Part shown: one piece after another, positions 7,008 to 16,105 of the stretch | How positions within the stretch are numbered: the first letter of the stretch is position 1 | How the letters are laid out: each line of letters begins with the position of its first letter | Source of the DNA: a virus | Reading direction: 5' to 3' (one strand) | Virus record (IMG/VR): IMGVR_UViG_3300021373_000840 | Span: 1-33,515 of that record | Length of the DNA stretch: 33,515 bases | Made by a program: the position numbers and the translations under genes | Notes under the pieces: generated by a model | What the model saw: only the letters and a program-made list of their open reading frames with translations | What the model was told of the DNA's origin: nothing | Databases searched by the model: none

Positions 7008-7319
7008 ATGACTAAAATAAGCGAATCAACAAACGTGACTTTTGATTTAAAAACTATTGGTTTAATACTAGGTGGCGCAATCTCTATTGCATTGACTTTT
7101 TTCACATTACAATCAGGCGTGGCCCAAAACACAAATGACATTAAGGAATTGAAAGACAGTTCTGTTAATTCAACTGAATTTAAATATAAAGATGAATTGA
7201 TTCGCGAAACAATTTTAAGAATAAATGAACAACAAGAAAATATTGTTGAAGATATAAATGAAGTCAAGGAACAATTAAATAAAATAGACGAAAGATTGTT
7301 TGATTTAAAATCTGAATAA
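7008..7319 (+). CDS. Membrane-anchored coiled-coil protein, possible lysis component
   Basis: This 103-residue protein has one strong transmembrane segment (about residues 17-38, IGLILGGAISIALTFFTL) and then a long charged coiled coil (about 40-103, with DINEVKEQLNKIDERLFDL at the end). This is the topology of a membrane-anchored spacer such as an i-spanin or a holin partner; the order is the reverse of XhlA proteins, whose coil precedes the membrane helix. It opens the lysis and envelope cassette and overlaps the next ATG. The function is inferred from topology and place only. Confidence 0.6.
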   Translation: MTKISESTNVTFDLKTIGLILGGAISIALTFFTLQSGVAQNTNDIKELKDSSVNSTEFKYKDELIRETILRINEQQENIVEDINEVKEQLNKIDERLFDLKSE

Positions 7320-7663
7320 TGAAATATATTATTATATGTTTTATCTTCTTTACTAGTGTTGTTAAGGCGCAAAATAAAGAAGGTATTTCAGTTGTTCAAT
7401 ACTCTGCTGATTTTGTAAAAAATAATGAGTTAGACTTATCTAAAATGACAAATAAAAAAATAAACAATTATGAAACATTGTATTTGTCAAATAATTCAAA
7501 AGCATTTAAAAAAGAAAATATAAAATATTTACCAACTGTTGTATTGTACAACAATGGTTCGGAACTAAAACGAATTGAATCTAATATTTCTTTGGAACTT
7601 CCTAAAAATACATTTGATTTAATTTATACTGAAATTGAAAAACTACTTAAAAACAAATTCTAA
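7319..7663 (+). CDS. Secreted thioredoxin-fold-like protein lacking CxxC
   Basis: The 114-residue product starts with a clear signal peptide (YIIICFIFFTSVVKAQ), with likely cleavage before Gln 18, a typical flavobacterial Ala-Gln junction. The mature part resembles a thioredoxin fold: a first strand VVQYSADFV where the redox motif would follow, a middle strand YETLYLSNN, then the cis-proline-type motif YLPTVVLYNNGSEL and a C-terminal helix. There is no cysteine pair, so redox activity is not expected. A periplasmic binding, chaperone or lysis-helper role is possible. It lies in one-base-overlap register between the coiled-coil gene and the barrel gene, implying co-expression late in infection. 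Confidence 0.6.
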   Translation: MKYIIICFIFFTSVVKAQNKEGISVVQYSADFVKNNELDLSKMTNKKINNYETLYLSNNSKAFKKENIKYLPTVVLYNNGSELKRIESNISLELPKNTFDLIYTEIEKLLKNKF

Positions 7664-8742
7664 TGAAAAATAAATTACTAATTATACTATTGTTTATTGG
7701 GTTTTTTGCTAATGCACAATGGCTGAAAAACATATTTGAATATTCAACGCCGTTTTTTAGTTATAATGAAACAAACCCTTTAACAACTGATGAACAATAT
7801 TTTGTAACACAATCAGGCGATGTTATTAATGTAACGCCTGAAAGATCAAATGATTATTTAATGACGTTTGGGATTCGTAAGTTAGCGCGTTTTGATTATG
7901 AAAATAAGGCGCGTAAATGGTACGATGGAACGGAACAAAACACAAGCCTTTCATCTAATAGTGGATCAGTTGTTGGATTAGAATATTTATTTCAAAAATC
8001 TTTTGGTCGCCAACGAAATATGGAATATAAATCGCATAGGTATTTTTTAAGATACTTAAAAAAATATTGGTCTATAAAGATTGAATCACAAAAGAACGGG
8101 ATTATAAACCTTAATTATGACGCTGCGGATTTACGATTTCGTTTGCCAATAACTAAAAACTTAAATTTTTCTTTTGGTGGTATTGTTAGAACTCATAATT
8201 CATACGGCTATAATCCAATAACAGAATATTTAAAAACAAATCAATGGTGGGATTTAGCTTATGAATATGATTATTATGATACGCCTTATGGAATTGATAA
8301 TGATTTAGATGGCGAAAATGATGTTTATGATTGGTATTGGTATAATTCAGAGGATAATCAGGTTGCCGATACTGATGCAGATTTCAGAAGAAACGTTTAC
8401 CAAAGAATTGTAAATGATTATAACAAACGCGAACTTGATAAAATTGGAACGCTTTACACATTATCAGCCGTTGTTGGTTTAGATTATTATTATTATCGTG
8501 ATAAATTTTGGTTGCATTCATGGGCCAACCTTATGCCGAAACATCATCATTTAAAAGGTGATTATAAATACAGTTATGAGAATTTTATTGGAAGGGATGA
8601 TTGGCTAGATTATAACGTTGGAATAATGTCAGGATTGTATTTGATTAAAAATAAAATTGGTATTTTTATTGAATATGAACGTACAAAGTTTTGGGATAAA
8701 AATTTAATATTCTTAAAAACTGGTGTTAATATAATGCTATAA
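7663..8742 (+). CDS. Secreted beta-barrel-like outer-membrane protein
   Basis: This 359-residue protein carries a signal peptide (residues about 1-18, LLIILLFIGFFANAQ) and a mature part rich in aromatic residues and alternating strands (W-S-I-K-I-E-S, F-R-L-P-I-T, LNFSFGGIVR, YTLSAVVGLDYYYYRD, FIEYERTKFWD, LIFLKTGVNIML). The aromatic strand pattern and a hydrophobic final strand suggest a barrel inserted in the host outer membrane. An acidic D/N/Y-rich segment (D-L-D-G-E-N-D-V-Y-D, about 213-225) could be a calcium-binding loop. I do not recognise a family. Because it sits directly before the endolysin, outer-membrane disruption or late exclusion of competing phages are both plausible; neither is shown by the sequence. 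Confidence 0.6.
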   Translation: MKNKLLIILLFIGFFANAQWLKNIFEYSTPFFSYNETNPLTTDEQYFVTQSGDVINVTPERSNDYLMTFGIRKLARFDYENKARKWYDGTEQNTSLSSNSGSVVGLEYLFQKSFGRQRNMEYKSHRYFLRYLKKYWSIKIESQKNGIINLNYDAADLRFRLPITKNLNFSFGGIVRTHNSYGYNPITEYLKTNQWWDLAYEYDYYDTPYGIDNDLDGENDVYDWYWYNSEDNQVADTDADFRRNVYQRIVNDYNKRELDKIGTLYTLSAVVGLDYYYYRDKFWLHSWANLMPKHHHLKGDYKYSYENFIGRDDWLDYNVGIMSGLYLIKNKIGIFIEYERTKFWDKNLIFLKTGVNIML

Positions 8743-8744
8743 TT

Positions 8745-9143
8745 ATGACAAAGAATTTTAAAATTAGTGAATTTGAATGCAAAGGCAATCTTAAAGGTTG
8801 TGAATGTAAAATGACTGCTGATGTTAAAAACAATATTATAAAAGTTGCAGATCAATTGCAAATCCTTCGCGATAAAATAAATAAACCTATCAAAATAAAT
8901 TCAGCTTATAGATGTGCCGATTACAACGATAATATTGTAAAAGGCGCCAAGCATAGCCAACATAAACTTGGAAAAGCCGTTGACATCGTTGTTGATGGAA
9001 TGACACCTGATGAAGTTCATAAATTAGTTTGTGAAATGATTGAACTGGGCCAATTAAATTTTGGTGGCGTTGGTAAATATAACACCTTTACGCATTTAGA
9101 CATCAGAGATTATAAAGCTAGATGGGATTATACAAAAAATTAA
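8745..9143 (+). CDS. Endolysin: M15 family zinc peptidase
   Basis: This 132-residue protein is a D-Ala-D-Ala carboxypeptidase-like M15 peptidase (M15_3 type) that would cut peptidoglycan cross-links at lysis. The zinc site is visible as S-x-H73-x-x-G-x-A-x-D80 (HSQHKLGKAVD) and the third ligand as H117 in FTHLDIR; INSAYRC at 51-57 is also a family motif. The N-terminus (FKISEFECKGN) is typical of this group. No signal peptide is present, so export should depend on the holin encoded directly downstream. It follows the barrel gene by two bases. Confidence 0.93.
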   Translation: MTKNFKISEFECKGNLKGCECKMTADVKNNIIKVADQLQILRDKINKPIKINSAYRCADYNDNIVKGAKHSQHKLGKAVDIVVDGMTPDEVHKLVCEMIELGQLNFGGVGKYNTFTHLDIRDYKARWDYTKN

Positions 9144-9146
9144 ATT

Positions 9147-9602
9147 ATGCCAAAAAAAGAATTTAGATCAACCACATTAGGTAAAATTTTATTAGGCGCT
9201 GCCGGTGTTATTAACCCAACATTAGGAAAAGTTCTTGAAGGCGTAACATCGCCAAAAGAAGCTATTGAACAAATAACTAAATCGGACGTTTCTAATGAAG
9301 ATAAAATTAAACTTCAACAGTTGATATACGAACAACAAAATAAAGAGATAGAAGCCATTACAAGCCGTTGGCAAGCCGATTCAATGTCGGATTCCTGGCT
9401 TTCAAAAAACGTGCGCCCTTTGGTTTTAATTTGGTGTATATGTATTTTTTCAATAGCAGGGATATTGGATTCAGTAGATTCTATTCCTTTTAACATAGGC
9501 ACAACTTGGAATGATACTTTTGAAAAGGTTATGATGGCCGTTGTATTGGCTTATTTTGGTGGGCGTACTACGGAAAAGGCAACATCTTTATTTAAGAAAT
9601 AA
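9147..9602 (+). CDS. Holin, 3TM (GTA-type) family
   Basis: The 151-residue product matches the GTA_holin_3TM group: a hydrophobic N-terminal stretch (LGKILLGAAGVINPTLGKVL), a soluble helical linker, then S-R-W-x-A-D-x-x-S-D-S-W-L-S-K-N-V-R-P at about 72-90 leading into a membrane helix (LVLIWCICIFSIAGIL) and a final membrane helix (VMMAVVLAYFGGRTTEK) with a basic tail. Holins time lysis by opening the inner membrane for the endolysin. Its stop overlaps the ATG of the next small gene. Confidence 0.87.
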   Translation: MPKKEFRSTTLGKILLGAAGVINPTLGKVLEGVTSPKEAIEQITKSDVSNEDKIKLQQLIYEQQNKEIEAITSRWQADSMSDSWLSKNVRPLVLIWCICIFSIAGILDSVDSIPFNIGTTWNDTFEKVMMAVVLAYFGGRTTEKATSLFKK

Positions 9603-10075: not shown

Positions 10076-10333
10076 ATGTTTGGATTAGGATTAACATTAA
10101 ATAGCCTAATTTCAGTTTTAGCCGTTACTGATGATGATTACTTTGCTCAAAGGGTTGAAGCAGATGGCGGTTACATTGAATCTTATGGTTGTGTTATTCA
10201 GGATATTTTAAATTTTCCTGAATCCGACCAAGGAAGAATATTGTTTGAAGCATACGATTCAAGATGCGAAGCTGATGGCGGTGATGCCGAGGCTAGAGTT
10301 TGCACAATTAACGAATTAAATGATCTTTTATGA
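10076..10333 (+). CDS. Protein with two copies of an R-V-x-A-D-G-G peptide module
   Basis: The 85-residue product has a short hydrophobic start (FGLGLTLNSLISVLAV) and then two related modules: residues 26-45 (RVEADGGYIESYGCVIQDIL) and 63-82 (RCEADGGDAEARVCTINELN). Each reads R-x-E-A-D-G-G-x-x-E-x-x-x-C-x-x-x-x-L. The same module appears twice in the baseplate-type protein at 20429-22669. I know of no assigned function; a small repeated virion-assembly or linker unit is a guess. The stop overlaps the start of the first large fibre gene. Confidence 0.65.
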   Translation: MFGLGLTLNSLISVLAVTDDDYFAQRVEADGGYIESYGCVIQDILNFPESDQGRILFEAYDSRCEADGGDAEARVCTINELNDLL

Positions 10334-12471
10334 GTTTATACGATGACGCAAGTTTAGTAATGATACCAACTGCCGTAAAGGATGGTAAACTATATAATAT
10401 AAAACCTGATCCAAATCCTATTTCAGGGGAACTTGTAACTAATGGAAACTTCGATACAGATAGTGATTGGACTTTAGGCACTGGTTGGAGTATTGCTAAT
10501 GGTAAATTAACTGCAAACAACGCAAGTGGTTACGCATTACAATCGGGAGTTTTTGAAAGCGGGGCGTCAAAAACATATAAAATTAGTTTTTCCGTATCTG
10601 ATTATGTAAGTGGTTATTTCACCATATTAACAAGCGGAGGCACTTCTCAAAGTCAACAATTTAACACTAATGGAAATTACACTATTTATTTTAATTCAAA
10701 TAGTCCAAGCGGAACAACACTTCATTTTACATACTTTGGTTCATTTAGTGGCTCAATAGACAACGTATCTGTTGTTGAAGTTGATGAATTACCTGCTGAT
10801 TTTACTTTTGACAGAGGTTCTAATTTAGCTGCGACACGAGTTAATAAAAGTGGACTAATTGAAAAGGGTAGAGAGAATTTATTGTTGCAGTCAAATCAGT
10901 TTGATACAACTTGGAGTTCAAACGGAATTACAGAAACAAGTGGTCAAAGTGGATACGATGGAACTAATGATGCGTGGTTAATAGAAAAATCAAATATTGC
11001 TACTCGTGTTGAACAAAGCGTTAGTGGTAGTGGTGTTACTACTTTTAGTGTATATCTAAAAAAGGGTACTTTGAATTTTGCACTGCTAAATTTATCATCA
11101 TTTAATCAATATTTTGATTTAGAAAACGGGACTTTAGGTAACGAGTCTGGCAATGCTTCATTAAAGGTTGATTCGGGAATAGAGTCTGTGGGTAATGGAT
11201 GGTATAGATGTTATATAACAACTAATCAATCATACACTATTGCTCGTATATATCCTGCAAGAGCAAATGGCGATAATGGTGGTACAAGCGGTTCAATCTA
11301 CATCCAAGACGCACAACTTGAACAAGGTTTAGTAGCTACTGACTATATTGAAAGTGGTGCAACAACTGGTAAAGCAGGTATATTAGAAGATTTACCAAGA
11401 TTAGATTATAGCGGTGGTGCAAGTTGCCCTTCGCTTTTACTTGAACCTACTCGGAGTAATATTATAACGTATTCAGAATTGTTTTATGAAGATGTAAACA
11501 ATAATAGATTTAATTATAGAGTTACAACAGTTGAAAATTCTGCTATTTCTCCAAGTGGTAATTTAAATGCTACAAGTTTAATAGAAGACTCAACAACTGA
11601 TACTCACGTTATGAGAAATACAGTTTCTATTACACAAAATTTAACTTACACTTTTTCTGTTTTTGCTAAATTAAAAAGCGGAGATAGATATTTACGTCTT
11701 TGTTTAGGAACTGCTAATTTTAATGCTACTTTTAATTTAATTAATAAAACATTAGTAGGCACAACTAATGCGGAAGGTAATATCGAAGAGTTTGAAAATG
11801 ATTGGGTTAGATTATCAGTAACAGGAACTCTAACAAGTTCAAATTACGATGATTTTGATTTAAGGTTTATAAACTCAAATACAAATAGTGATTATTACGC
11901 TGGAGACGGAACAAGTGGCTTTTATGTTTGGGGAGCACAAATAGAACAAGGAAGTTACGCAACAAGTTACATACCCACTTACGGAACAAGTCAAACGAGG
12001 TCTACGGATCGTAATTTAGTTTTAGATTTAAGTGATAGTGGTGTTGATGGAGAAAGTGTTACTCATTTTTTTCATTTTACAAATAATAAATTGCTAGTAA
12101 GAGAAAGTTCTAATATAAATGTAAGGTTAAGTTCAAATGTGAGTAATCTCGGCTCTGTAAGAATATACAGGTCAGCTACAAGTGCTAGAAGATTAAGTGT
12201 TGTTTTTCAAGATATCAATGGAGATTTTTCTATTCCTGGTGCTAACACTTCAACAGACGAGGTTAAAATATTAGTTAAGAGAAATTGGACTACTAAATTA
12301 ATTAATGTTTTTATAAATGGAGTAAAGATAACAAATCCTACAAGTGATTTATTTAATACTTGGCATAGGGTTGAAATCGAAGGTACTGGTAGCACAATAA
12401 ATATAAAACAATATGCGGTATTCCCAACCGTATTAACAGACCAAGAATGTATAGAATTAACAACAATATAA
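10330..12471 (+). CDS. Tail fibre / adhesin 1 with lectin-like domains (713 residues)
   Basis: This large beta-rich protein has, in order, a start motif shared with its two paralogues (DDASLVMIPTAVKDGKLYNIKP), a carbohydrate-binding-like jelly roll (about 34-155, from LVTNGNFDTDSDW to IDNVSVVEV), a second jelly roll (about 180-345, ENLLLQSNQFDTTW to IYIQDAQLEQG), a conserved hinge with LPRLDY and CPSLLLEPTRSN (about 356-380), a third roll ending YVWGAQIEQGSYATSYIPTYG (about 535-555), and a C-terminal concanavalin/LamG-like domain ending LTDQECIELTTI. Such proteins bind host surface glycans. Adjacent paralogues at 12473 and 14930 and equal ends argue for duplication. Exact virion location is not shown. 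Confidence 0.78.
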   Translation: MSLYDDASLVMIPTAVKDGKLYNIKPDPNPISGELVTNGNFDTDSDWTLGTGWSIANGKLTANNASGYALQSGVFESGASKTYKISFSVSDYVSGYFTILTSGGTSQSQQFNTNGNYTIYFNSNSPSGTTLHFTYFGSFSGSIDNVSVVEVDELPADFTFDRGSNLAATRVNKSGLIEKGRENLLLQSNQFDTTWSSNGITETSGQSGYDGTNDAWLIEKSNIATRVEQSVSGSGVTTFSVYLKKGTLNFALLNLSSFNQYFDLENGTLGNESGNASLKVDSGIESVGNGWYRCYITTNQSYTIARIYPARANGDNGGTSGSIYIQDAQLEQGLVATDYIESGATTGKAGILEDLPRLDYSGGASCPSLLLEPTRSNIITYSELFYEDVNNNRFNYRVTTVENSAISPSGNLNATSLIEDSTTDTHVMRNTVSITQNLTYTFSVFAKLKSGDRYLRLCLGTANFNATFNLINKTLVGTTNAEGNIEEFENDWVRLSVTGTLTSSNYDDFDLRFINSNTNSDYYAGDGTSGFYVWGAQIEQGSYATSYIPTYGTSQTRSTDRNLVLDLSDSGVDGESVTHFFHFTNNKLLVRESSNINVRLSSNVSNLGSVRIYRSATSARRLSVVFQDINGDFSIPGANTSTDEVKILVKRNWTTKLINVFINGVKITNPTSDLFNTWHRVEIEGTGSTINIKQYAVFPTVLTDQECIELTTI

Positions 12472-12472
12472 T

Positions 12473-14197
12473 ATGAGTACATATAATAAAGCAAGTTTAA
12501 TATTAATCCCAAGTGGGACAAAGACAAGTAAAATATACAGTCAGAAACCTATTAACGGAGATGGGGATTTCACTTTTTCACGTTCAACTATGGCAACTCG
12601 TGTTAATGAAAGTGGGTTAATAGAAAAGGAAACGCAGAATCTTTTGTTGCAGAGTAATAGTTTTGATACGACTTGGAATAGCGATGATGGTCTAACGGGA
12701 GGTCAATCTGGCTATGATGGTTCTAATGATGCGTGGCTTTTTACGTTAGCTACAAATCCTGCTATTGTTAGGCAAGCAAATACAAGTGGAGGCGTTCAAA
12801 CATATTCTGTATATGCAAAAGGAAACACTAATAATGGGATTCGCCTGTATGCTTTTGGTTCATCTAATTGCTATGCATTTTTTGACCTTAACGCAGGAAC
12901 TGTAGAATCTAATCAAAACCTTATTGATGCAACTATAGAAGATAAAGGTAATGGATGGTATAGATGTGCTATTACATTTAACCAAACCAATACTCAACTA
13001 TATATGTATTTGAGTAATAACCAAAACTTAAACGCAAGTAGCGGTTCTATTCTTATCCAAGACGCTCAATTAGAACAAGGACTTGCGGCACGAGATTATA
13101 TAGAAACAACTACATCAGCAGTTTATGGTGGTATTACAGACAATGTACCAAGACTTGACTACACTGATGCTACTTGTCCGTCGCTCTTATTAGAACCTAC
13201 TCGAACAAATCTAATGACACATAGTGAGTTTACAAATGTCTTAAATAATGTTACATTATCTTATGTAGAAAGTCCAGAAGGTTTAAACAATGCTATGCGT
13301 TTAACTGAAACAACTTCTAATTCTCAACATTATGCTACAATTGAAAATGCTTTAGTTACAAGTGGTGTTAAATATTCAATAAGTTTCTTTATTAAAAAAG
13401 GCACTCACGACCAAGTACGATTGTACACGCAAAGTTCTACTATAAACTTTTCATTAAGATTTACTTTTAGTAGTGAAACTTTAGAAATTTTTGGAACTGA
13501 TGCTGAAACTGGTTCAGAAAATTTTGTTGATTATGGTAATGGTTGGTATAGAATTAGTGCTAATGGTACTGCAAATTCAACTGGAACAGTAGATATATAC
13601 GCAACTACTAAAAGTTTAGGTTCTTATACAGGAAGCACGTCAGATTATACTGATTATTATGGCTTTCAAATTGAAGAAGGAAGTTACCCAACAAGTTATA
13701 TTCCTACCTATGGCACAAGTGTTACGAGGAATGCAGATTATGTAGATATTCCACAAAGTAGTTATAACATAAATAATTCTTTTAGTATTCATTTAGATTT
13801 TGGAATAACAAAAAAAATTGAGGGCGTTAGTACAAATATATATTCATTGATTACTAATGAAGATTTAAATTTTCAACTATACACTAATTCAAGTGGAAAT
13901 GATGGATTAAATGTATACTTAAAAAATCAAGGTGGCTATGTGTTTGGTAGTAACCCAAATGATGGATGGGGTAATACTGCTTCTAAAATTTGTGTTACTT
14001 ACAATGCAAATACTGGGCGTTTAGCATATTTTATTAATGGCAGTTTATATAATGAACAAACATCGATTTTATCATTTGGAACTCACTCTACAGCATATAT
14101 AACTCCATCAGCAAACAATCTTATGGAAATTAAAAAGTATTTATTTTTTGAATCTGCATTAACAGACCAAGAAGCAATTAATTTAACAACTATATAA
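12473..14197 (+). CDS. Tail fibre / adhesin 2, paralogue of the 10330 gene (574 residues)
   Basis: The protein repeats the plan of its neighbour without the first jelly roll: start motif KASLILIPSGTKTSKIYSQKP, NGDGDFTFSRSTMATRVNESGLIEK (about 29-53), a jelly roll from QNLLLQSNSFDTTW to ILIQDAQLEQGLAARDYIE, the hinge VPRLDY with CPSLLLEPTRTNLMTHSE, a further roll ending QIEEGSYPTSYIPTYGTSVTR and a C-terminal LamG-like domain ending LTDQEAINLTTI. It follows the first fibre by one base. Likely a surface-glycan-binding virion protein; having two versions side by side points to broadened or switchable host range. Confidence 0.78.
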   Translation: MSTYNKASLILIPSGTKTSKIYSQKPINGDGDFTFSRSTMATRVNESGLIEKETQNLLLQSNSFDTTWNSDDGLTGGQSGYDGSNDAWLFTLATNPAIVRQANTSGGVQTYSVYAKGNTNNGIRLYAFGSSNCYAFFDLNAGTVESNQNLIDATIEDKGNGWYRCAITFNQTNTQLYMYLSNNQNLNASSGSILIQDAQLEQGLAARDYIETTTSAVYGGITDNVPRLDYTDATCPSLLLEPTRTNLMTHSEFTNVLNNVTLSYVESPEGLNNAMRLTETTSNSQHYATIENALVTSGVKYSISFFIKKGTHDQVRLYTQSSTINFSLRFTFSSETLEIFGTDAETGSENFVDYGNGWYRISANGTANSTGTVDIYATTKSLGSYTGSTSDYTDYYGFQIEEGSYPTSYIPTYGTSVTRNADYVDIPQSSYNINNSFSIHLDFGITKKIEGVSTNIYSLITNEDLNFQLYTNSSGNDGLNVYLKNQGGYVFGSNPNDGWGNTASKICVTYNANTGRLAYFINGSLYNEQTSILSFGTHSTAYITPSANNLMEIKKYLFFESALTDQEAINLTTI

Positions 14198-14199
14198 TT

Positions 14200-14571
14200 A
14201 TGAAAAAATTTAGAAAATACAAATTTGGCAGTAAAAGTTCAGCCACAACTAAAATCAATGCTTTAGGTATTGATGAGGATGGAAACCCTACGCATAACCA
14301 TTCTATTGTTAAATTAGGTAACATTGTTTTAGAAAATGGTACTTATGACGAAGATGGAGAAGAAATAACTCCGCCAGTATTATCTGACGATTACCACGTT
14401 GATGTTCTTTGGGATGGCGATCCAAGTGAAGATTGGGATAATCAAATAGTATGGTGTAAACCTTTAGGCGTACATACATTTGGTTCATCATCTGCAATAG
14501 CTGAATGGACTCAAAAATGCAAAGAATTACATCCTGAATATTTTCCAGTTCCTGAAGAATTAGAATTATGA
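14200..14571 (+). CDS. Small partner protein of the fibre genes, copy 1 (possible chaperone)
   Basis: This acidic 123-residue protein is paralogous to the product of 16116-16442. Shared features are the start with K-x-Y/F-x-F, then I-x-A-L-G-[IV]-D, PTH followed by a KLG strand, an E/Y-D-E-D-G-x-E turn, and the V-D-V-L-W / V-D-V-C-W strand. Each copy lies directly downstream of a fibre gene, so the product is likely a fibre-associated protein or fibre assembly chaperone. Its C-terminal extension (WTQKCKELHPEYFPVPEEL) is absent from copy 2. No family recognised beyond the internal paralogy. Confidence 0.65.
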   Translation: MKKFRKYKFGSKSSATTKINALGIDEDGNPTHNHSIVKLGNIVLENGTYDEDGEEITPPVLSDDYHVDVLWDGDPSEDWDNQIVWCKPLGVHTFGSSSAIAEWTQKCKELHPEYFPVPEELEL

Positions 14572-14900
14572 GAATAATCTTCTTTTTGTTAGCGTTTAAT
14601 TGTCATGCGCAATTGCTTACTGAAGAAGATAAAAAACAACATTTTATGGCGGGAACAGTCTTTTCAGCGCCAACTTATAGTGAAGTTTATTTAAAAACTG
14701 GTGACATTGGAAAAGCCTTTGGATATGGTTTATTAGCATCAACTTTAGTAGGTACTGGCAAAGAACTTATGGATGATACATTTGACAAAAGGGATTTGAT
14801 CGCGACAATGCTAGGCGCTATTGCTATAAATATTATTTTAACTACAATAGTAATATTAAACAAAAAGCATAAAAAAACACCTTTAAAAATACAACGATAA
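14568..14900 (+). CDS. Secreted or membrane protein resembling YfiM/DUF2279
   Basis: The 110-residue product begins with a short signal peptide (IIFFLLAFNCHAQ, cleavage likely before Gln 15), followed by D-K-K-Q-H-F-M-A-G (about 21-29), a hydrophobic glycine-rich stretch YGLLASTLVGTGKELMDD and a second hydrophobic helix LIATMLGAIAINIILTTIVI with a basic tail. The D-K-x-x-H-F ... GK-E-L-x-D pattern recalls the YfiM/DUF2279 periplasmic family, whose function is unknown. It overlaps the preceding stop (ATGA) and sits oddly between two fibre units; the following fibre gene has its own promoter box. Confidence 0.6.
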   Translation: MRIIFFLLAFNCHAQLLTEEDKKQHFMAGTVFSAPTYSEVYLKTGDIGKAFGYGLLASTLVGTGKELMDDTFDKRDLIATMLGAIAINIILTTIVILNKKHKKTPLKIQR

Positions 14901-14906
14901 TTTTTG

Positions 14907-14914
14907 TATTTTTG
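14907..14914 (+). promoter_or_regulatory. Promoter -7 box TATTTTTG before fibre 3
   Basis: TATTTTTG (consensus TAnnTTTG) within GTATTTTTGT lies 15 bases before the ATG at 14930. The same GTATTTTTGT string precedes 9802 and 17738. Confidence 0.55.
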
Positions 14915-14929
14915 TGAAAACATTCTTTT

Positions 14930-16105
14930 ATGTCAACACTTAATGATGCTAAATTAACGTTAATTCCTAGCGGTTATAAATCAACAAAAGTTTATTCAGT
15001 TAAACCAACTAATGGTGATGGCGATTTCACTTTTGCTAGAAATGGTGATGCTTCACGTTTAAATCCTGGATTAAATATTGAACAAGTTTCAGCAAACGTT
15101 CCAAGGATAAATCATTATAGTGGGGGTTGCCCATCGCTATTATTAGAAAATGAAGCACAAAATTTAATAACATATTCCGAAGATTTTAGTCAATGGACTA
15201 ATTATTCACAAGGAACTGGATCATCTGTTATTATTACACAAAATAATAGTATAAGCCCTGATGGTCAAAATAATGGTACTAGAATACAATGCGCATTGAA
15301 TAGCGGGAATACAACTTCAGATAGGTCTTATATTAGTTTAGGTGGTTTTAGCGGTACACCATTTGATTGCACTAAATCATTATATGTAAAAAACAATCTT
15401 AATGTAGAACAAACATTTTTTATTGGTGTTAATTCAGTAGCTGATAGGGTTACTTTACAAGTTTCAAATGAATGGCAGAGATTAAGTGTTGAAGGTGGTG
15501 TTTTAAATACTGAATTTAGAATTGGAATTATTGGTGACAGTTCAAATAGCGATAGTATTGACATTGATATATTTGGATGTCAATTAGAAACTGGAAATTT
15601 ATCTAGTTACATAAAATCTAATACTGGATCACCAACAACAAGACAAAAAGATCAATGTTATAATGCAGGAAATAGCGATTTATTTAATATAACAGAAGGA
15701 AGTTATTTTATAGATATAAAACCATTTTCAAATAGTTCATTTTATAATATATCTTTAAGTGATGGAAGTGCAAACAATCGAATATCTTGGCAATTTCAAA
15801 ACAATAATACACAAGTAAGAGTTAGAATTGTTTCAGATTCAACGCCAGTTATGAATGAACCGGAATCAGTAAATTTTGGATCTAGAAATAAATTATGCTT
15901 AACTTTTAAAGATAATGAATTTAAAACTTATATAAATGGATCTTTAGTTAATACACAAACAAGCGGCAACATTCCAACATCATTAGATCGATTAAGTTTT
16001 GCCGTTTACAATGCAACTAATAATTTCTTTGAAGGTGAAGTTTATTCAGTTAAAATTTATGATGAATTATTAACTGAAACACAAGCTATTGAATTAACAA
16101 CATAA
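14930..16105 (+). CDS. Tail fibre / adhesin 3, shortest paralogue (391 residues)
   Basis: This is the third and shortest member of the adhesin set. It has the shared start (DAKLTLIPSGYKSTKVYSVKP, NGDGDFTFARNGDASRLN), goes directly to the hinge equivalent (VPRINHYSGGCPSLLLENEAQNLITYSE), one jelly roll (about 85-225), and a C-terminal LamG-like domain ending LTETQAIELTT. The two larger paralogues therefore look like expanded forms of this architecture. It has its own promoter-like box and is followed by copy 2 of the small partner gene, giving a complete fibre-plus-partner unit. Confidence 0.77.
   Translation: MSTLNDAKLTLIPSGYKSTKVYSVKPTNGDGDFTFARNGDASRLNPGLNIEQVSANVPRINHYSGGCPSLLLENEAQNLITYSEDFSQWTNYSQGTGSSVIITQNNSISPDGQNNGTRIQCALNSGNTTSDRSYISLGGFSGTPFDCTKSLYVKNNLNVEQTFFIGVNSVADRVTLQVSNEWQRLSVEGGVLNTEFRIGIIGDSSNSDSIDIDIFGCQLETGNLSSYIKSNTGSPTTRQKDQCYNAGNSDLFNITEGSYFIDIKPFSNSSFYNISLSDGSANNRISWQFQNNNTQVRVRIVSDSTPVMNEPESVNFGSRNKLCLTFKDNEFKTYINGSLVNTQTSGNIPTSLDRLSFAVYNATNNFFEGEVYSVKIYDELLTETQAIELTT

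Follow-up and report, generated by a model that had tools for sequence, protein, structure and literature searches.

Gene organization of the locus

The window analysed here corresponds to one IMG/VR virus record and is 33,515 bases long. Five near-contiguous open reading frames were found at positions 7008–9602, all on the plus strand, in the order q103, q114, q359, M15 endolysin and holin. TAATG overlaps are present at 7319 and 7663, and the remaining gaps between the genes are 2 and 3 bases. Comparison with L004, a 94% relative of the window that served as the reference for dN/dS, gave values of 0.08–0.17 for all five genes.

The third gene, q359 (7663–8742), is the main subject of this study. 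It starts with ATG and encodes a protein of 359 residues with an N-terminal signal sequence (MKNKLLIILLFIGFFANAQ), in agreement with the original prediction of a secreted protein at this position. The dN/dS of q359 was 0.11, indicating that the gene is conserved. It is followed by an M15 peptidase endolysin (8745–9143; PF08291, E 6.2e-17; phrog_894 endolysin, E 3.6e-37), which had been correctly named, and by a holin of the GTA_holin_3TM kind (9147–9602; phrog_3427 holin, E 2.6e-17; PF11351, E 0.001, under its cut-off). The endolysin is the direct neighbour of q359, as had been described, while the coiled-coil gene that was placed immediately upstream lies one gene further away (7008–7319), with q114 (7319–7663) intervening. 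Neither this thioredoxin-like gene nor the fourth, YfiM-like component described below had been noticed. Beyond the lysis genes and before the tail tube gene, positions 10330–16105 encode three large, similar-looking fibre-like proteins of 713, 574 and 391 residues; one of the three was searched against Pfam and gave no match.

Predicted structure of the q359 protein

The structure of q359 was predicted using AlphaFold2. A run with just four near-identical sequences gave a pLDDT of 28 and was useless, while an alignment of 96 sequences gave a model with a mean pLDDT of 88.4, a pTM of 0.79 and 12 long strands. The 96 sequences were diverse full-length homologues collected by scanning viral contigs with the holin, the endolysin and then q359 itself. 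Strands 1–6 of the model comprise residues 29–37, 64–73, 105–117, 120–132, 136–145 and 150–162, and strands 7–12 comprise residues 167–178, 264–278, 282–291, 316–328, 332–343 and 346–357. The secondary structure of the model places an insert of 85 residues with helices (residues 179–263, encoded at 8197–8451) between strands 7 and 8. The first part of this insert is conserved and its middle is variable; if both termini of the protein are periplasmic, the insert would lie on the outside or in the lumen of the barrel.

The model was compared with known structures. Foldseek gave six matches in the PDB at E < 0.001, all of them outer-membrane barrels (NanC, EspP, Pel transporter), and VIA-align gave a Z of about 11 to TamA, CymA and OmpG. 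Many barrels were found at similar Z and no one family was singled out, so that the VIA-align matches show the fold class of the predicted structure and not a function. OMPLA, which is defined as a 12-strand barrel with a catalytic Ser-His-Asn, was among the matches at Z 9.5, level with many other barrels. The protein thus combines a signal peptide with a predicted closed barrel of amphipathic strands, the features of an outer-membrane β-barrel. The original prediction had gained an impression of a barrel from the sequence and had proposed structure prediction as a check; the model bore out the barrel. Polar residues that are invariant or nearly so were found at R72, E107, R158, R176, D274, H285, H294, D316 and E337, and the parts expected to face outwards (L1, the middle of the insert and L5) are conserved less than the strands.

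Distribution of the q359 family

Homologues of q359 with 29–61% identity were found in many phages. Two scans with q359 gave at least 515 and at least 584 confirmed stretches, sets that may overlap, and the family is therefore present in at least 500 viral contigs. Searches of Pfam, PHROG and NCBIfam gave no convincing match for q359. Weak sequence matches to LolA in the PDB (best E 0.003) disappeared when a profile was used, and this identity was rejected. A search of 50,697 phage records by tblastn with four divergent q359 barrels found no relative, and neither did a search of the same records with one q103 and two q114 proteins. The viral protein A0A516LKJ4 of the BFVD matched q359 by Foldseek with an E of 4.7e-28, a TM of 0.75 and 26% identity, and by predicted fold it clearly belongs to the same barrel family.

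Matches to q359 in the genome collection were few and included archaeal and alphaproteobacterial bins. The barrel contigs L248–L251, L255 and L256 come from MAGs labelled as Woesearchaeota, Nitrosopelagicus and Alphaproteobacteria, and are probably mis-binned phage contigs. When 395 genomes were drawn from the class of MAG G051, just G051 itself matched, and the family was not detected in the other 394 sampled host-class genomes. One record of 245,646 bases (L297 and L299) contains two complete modules separated by about 119 kb; the contigs of its relatives are 110–158 kb long, and the record may consist of two joined phage genomes. The N-termini of q359 homologues in L270, L275, L283, L293, L324, L325 and L333 are lipobox-like (e.g. 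LVACAAPKKCCSQ), and from these starts a few barrels of the family may be lipidated.

The partner proteins q103 and q114

The protein encoded by q103 (7008–7319) is 103 residues long. It has a single transmembrane segment at the N-terminus, and its charged C-terminal part resembles a coiled coil. In an alignment of 62 family members E57, K61, D62 and R66 were invariant. An i-spanin is a type II inner-membrane protein with a periplasmic coiled coil, and the charges flanking the segment of q103 are not clear-cut as to orientation. Matches of q103 in PHROG and Pfam seemed to reflect coiled coils in general and were set aside.

The 114-residue protein encoded by q114 (7319–7663) resembles a secreted thioredoxin and, like q359, carries a signal sequence. 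Its profile matched thioredoxins in the PDB at 6e-8 and 2.5e-7, PF00085 was matched by 50 of 83 members, and P72, at the cis-proline position, is invariant in the family. These features are those of a thioredoxin fold. The CxxC active site was found in 0 of 137 q114 sequences, so that the protein is not a redox-active thioredoxin.

The last residue of q114 (codon at 7658–7660, plus strand) is Phe in all 122 distinct proteins from barrel-positive phages and in none of the 15 from barrel-negative phages. In a tree of q114 built without the terminal residue, the barrel-negative proteins formed one side of a single branch (support 48), and the correlation consequently counts as one event and not as many independent ones. 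The retention of this Phe in 122 sequences that are otherwise little alike suggests a contact that would be required only when the barrel is present.

Co-occurrence and co-divergence of the three genes

Of the 115 distinct q359 loci that came with flanking sequence, 112 contained both q103 and q114, which substantiates the link between the barrel and the coiled coil at 7008 that the original prediction had drawn. Two gene orders account for most loci, q103-q114-q359 in 59 and q359-q103-q114 in 52. Three of the latter 52 contain an extra q114-like reading frame, and one further locus has an extra copy in front. The association was also found when contigs were picked by other genes: when 50 contigs picked for their lysin or holin were searched over the full length, q103 occurred together with q114 in 15, with one additional weak partial q103. 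The eight full-length barrels in these 50 contigs were all within the 15 that contain q103 and q114, and two further barrels were cut off at the contig end.

Pairwise distances, capped before comparison, correlated with r of 0.61–0.82 within the module, compared with 0.21–0.47 between the module and lysin or holin. The tight co-occurrence and the distance correlations therefore indicate that q103, q114 and q359 are transmitted together, to some extent independently of lysin and holin. It is very likely that q359 is an outer-membrane barrel and that it functions together with q103 and q114.

Some phages contain q103 and q114 and lack the barrel. Three of these share a small lipoprotein of 79–87 residues (…C[ES]DNCDL…) encoded about 6 kb downstream (L017:8260–8499, L034:11136–11399 and L038:11001–11243), which could be an alternative outer-membrane partner. 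A fourth (G014, L347:10800–11456) encodes a lipoprotein of 218 residues close downstream of q103-q114. These four contigs are suggestive of a lipoprotein as the third part in barrel-less phages.

A YfiM-like fourth gene

A small secreted protein resembling YfiM/DUF2279 is encoded at 14568–14900 on the plus strand, 5.8 kb from the module in the window. In many relatives a gene of the same family lies between q114 and q359, making it a linked fourth component. Of 193 barrel-positive loci, 42 contained a gene of this family, which was confined to barrel-positive contigs; the sole match at a barrel-negative locus, L358, proved to be the second half of a barrel-positive contig. Of the relatives, L318 passes the PF10043 threshold (33.4 against a cut-off of 28.6 bits), while the matches of others were weak or absent, and the protein of the window itself gave no match to PF10043. 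In bacteria, YfiM-DUF2279 lipocones are reported to be fused or linked to outer-membrane barrels almost without exception, and lipid head groups of the outer membrane could be their target (2025 eLife, PMC12419801).

Spanins and the link with lysis genes

Lipoproteins were sought using a six-frame lipobox scan, which recovered the positive controls lambda Rz1 and Bor. No canonical lipoprotein was detected in any frame of the 33.5-kb window, so that the canonical lipobox of an o-spanin is lacking, consistent with the earlier remark that no classical spanin pair is visible. With a loosened lipobox the sole candidate was 14568–14900, whose N-terminus resembles an ordinary signal peptide. A unimolecular spanin, with a canonical lipobox and a C-terminal transmembrane segment in one protein, was likewise not found in the window. 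Unimolecular spanins of the T1 gp11 type are the only spanin type reported for Bacteroidetes phages (PMC12596118). Phages without spanins include Croceibacter and Bacteroides phages, and it has been suggested that an outer-membrane protein could act as o-spanin (Kongari et al., 2018, PMC6139136).

Among loci picked by q359 alone, 40 of the 54 from small phages had a recognised lysin or holin within 2 kb, compared with 23 of the 60 from large phages. At 49 of 115 loci, none of the modelled lysins or holins lay within 2 kb. The hydrolases that adjoin the module belong to unrelated families: M15, Amidase_2 with PG_binding_1 (L257) and Phage_lysozyme2 (L239). In large phages the module lies amid large genes, one of which has a Laminin_G domain. 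Near the module in some large phages is a family of about 200 residues (L262:8379–8984) that matched phrog_33083 (endolysin) at E 1e-18 and gave no match in Pfam; it is possibly another lysin.

Substitution of the module by lipoprotein spanins was considered for phages that share the lysin or holin but lack the module. It was not supported, since adjacent lipoproteins were found in 3 of 75 compared with 0 of 21. These related phages without the module (L009–L167) thus mostly have no lipoprotein gene near lysin or holin.

Possible role of the module

The best single explanation of these observations is that the module disrupts the outer membrane at lysis in the manner of a spanin, with the barrel in place of the lipoprotein. 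The module would then be an envelope-spanning device for the end of infection. The q103 protein would be anchored in the inner membrane and extend its coiled coil into the periplasm, where it would bind q114, a non-redox thioredoxin-fold adaptor, and the C-terminal Phe of q114 would in turn dock on the q359 barrel in the outer membrane. Removal of peptidoglycan by the endolysin would cause this bridge to collapse or to pull the membranes together, so that the outer membrane opens, as with spanins. The genes, the folds, the linkage and the Phe correlation come from sequence and prediction; the orientation of q103, the contacts between the proteins, the late timing and the disruption of the outer membrane are inferred.

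Lysis is favoured by the near-contiguity of the module with endolysin and holin, by parts predicted for the inner membrane, the periplasm and the outer membrane, by the linkage of the three genes, by the Phe correlation, by the unrelated families of the adjoining hydrolases, by the lack of a canonical lipoprotein in the window and by the published suggestion of an outer-membrane protein as o-spanin. It is opposed by the loci without a near lysis gene, by the large genes around the module in large phages, by the lack of a pattern of replacement by lipoproteins, by the single event behind the Phe correlation and by the partly independent divergence of the module from lysin and holin. We give a function in lysis no more than about an even chance, since in many large phages the module is located apart from any recognised lysis gene. 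As the lipobox of an o-spanin was not found, the module is not filed as a spanin, although it may work like one. The original prediction of an outer-membrane lysis device therefore stands as to the barrel, the export signal, the lack of a recognisable spanin and the link to the coil, and is plausible as to the lysis role itself.

The main rivals are exclusion of other phages and remodelling of outer-membrane lipids. A barrel exported during infection might mask a receptor, as the original prediction had also considered, with q103 and q114 helping to place or anchor it, and so prevent other phages or the phage's own progeny from attaching to the cell or to cell debris. T5 llp and similar receptor-blocking genes of phages lie near receptor-binding genes, and the large, possibly fibre, genes that flank the module in large phages, the fibre-like genes that come after it in the window and the lower conservation of the outward barrel parts all fit such a role. 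We consider it unlikely: known excluders are single genes and here three genes are kept together, the module lies beside endolysin and holin in small phages, and the absence of the family from the sampled host-class genomes indicates that it is not a common prophage gene.

Alternatively, the barrel and the YfiM-like lipocone protein might form a complex in the outer membrane that modifies lipid head groups and is supplied by the inner membrane via q103 and q114; such an activity may weaken the membrane before lysis or alter the cell surface. The restriction of YfiM-like genes to barrel-positive contigs, mostly between q114 and q359, the tie of bacterial YfiM-DUF2279 lipocones to outer-membrane barrels (PMC12419801) and the conserved polar residues of the barrel point in this direction. 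Against it, 151 of 193 barrel-positive loci had no YfiM-like gene in the fetched stretch and similarity to DUF2279 is weak in most members, and we consider this activity rather improbable; it could also be how the membrane breaks during lysis. A structural role, in which the three proteins are incorporated into the virion and function at DNA entry, is very improbable, as the signal sequences of q114 and q359 should take them out of the cytoplasm where virions are assembled and barrel folding needs the host BAM machinery. In its favour are the location of the genes in the window, flanked by those for head completion and for the tail, and the large, possibly fibre, genes near the module in large phages.

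Many Bacteroidota phages have no recognisable spanin. For their way of breaking the outer membrane the module offers a concrete candidate, three linked proteins carried by at least 500 marine viral contigs, with a testable contact at the last residue of q114. Returning to lysis, there is a reasonable prospect, somewhat short of even, that the module represents a new class of phage lysis system, in which a bridge of three to four parts replaces lipoprotein spanins in many marine Bacteroidota phages. The parts of this bridge would be an inner-membrane coil, a non-redox thioredoxin-fold adaptor, an outer-membrane barrel and often a lipocone-like protein. If the function differs, a phage-borne module reaching from inner to outer membrane with its own barrel, unmatched in the cultured phage records and family libraries searched, would still represent a novel type of envelope system in phage-host interaction.

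Comparison with known systems

A limited search of open-access papers was combined with the above searches of family libraries and phage records, and none of these yielded the barrel family or the arrangement of three parts. Single barrels encoded by phages include lambda Lom, the cyanophage OMP-like proteins and the phage DUF481 proteins, and some proteins of this kind matched q359 weakly in structure. They belong to different families and are not known to be accompanied by a coil in the inner membrane and a protein of thioredoxin fold. Unimolecular spanins such as T1 gp11 serve the same host group, whereas the window has no protein joining a canonical lipobox to a C-terminal transmembrane segment.

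The bacterial operons of YfiM-DUF2279 lipocones and outer-membrane barrels (PMC12419801) also link a small secreted YfiM-like protein to a barrel. The module differs from them in being phage-borne, in containing q103 and q114, and in having a barrel family unmatched in the libraries searched. Two-component spanins such as lambda Rz/Rz1 likewise pair an outer-membrane partner with a protein of the inner membrane that has a single transmembrane segment at its N-terminus and a part resembling a coiled coil, and their overlapping genes also lie beside endolysin and holin. No sequence relation to Rz/Rz1 was found, and in the module the outer-membrane partner is a predicted barrel in place of a lipoprotein, with an exported thioredoxin-fold protein in between.
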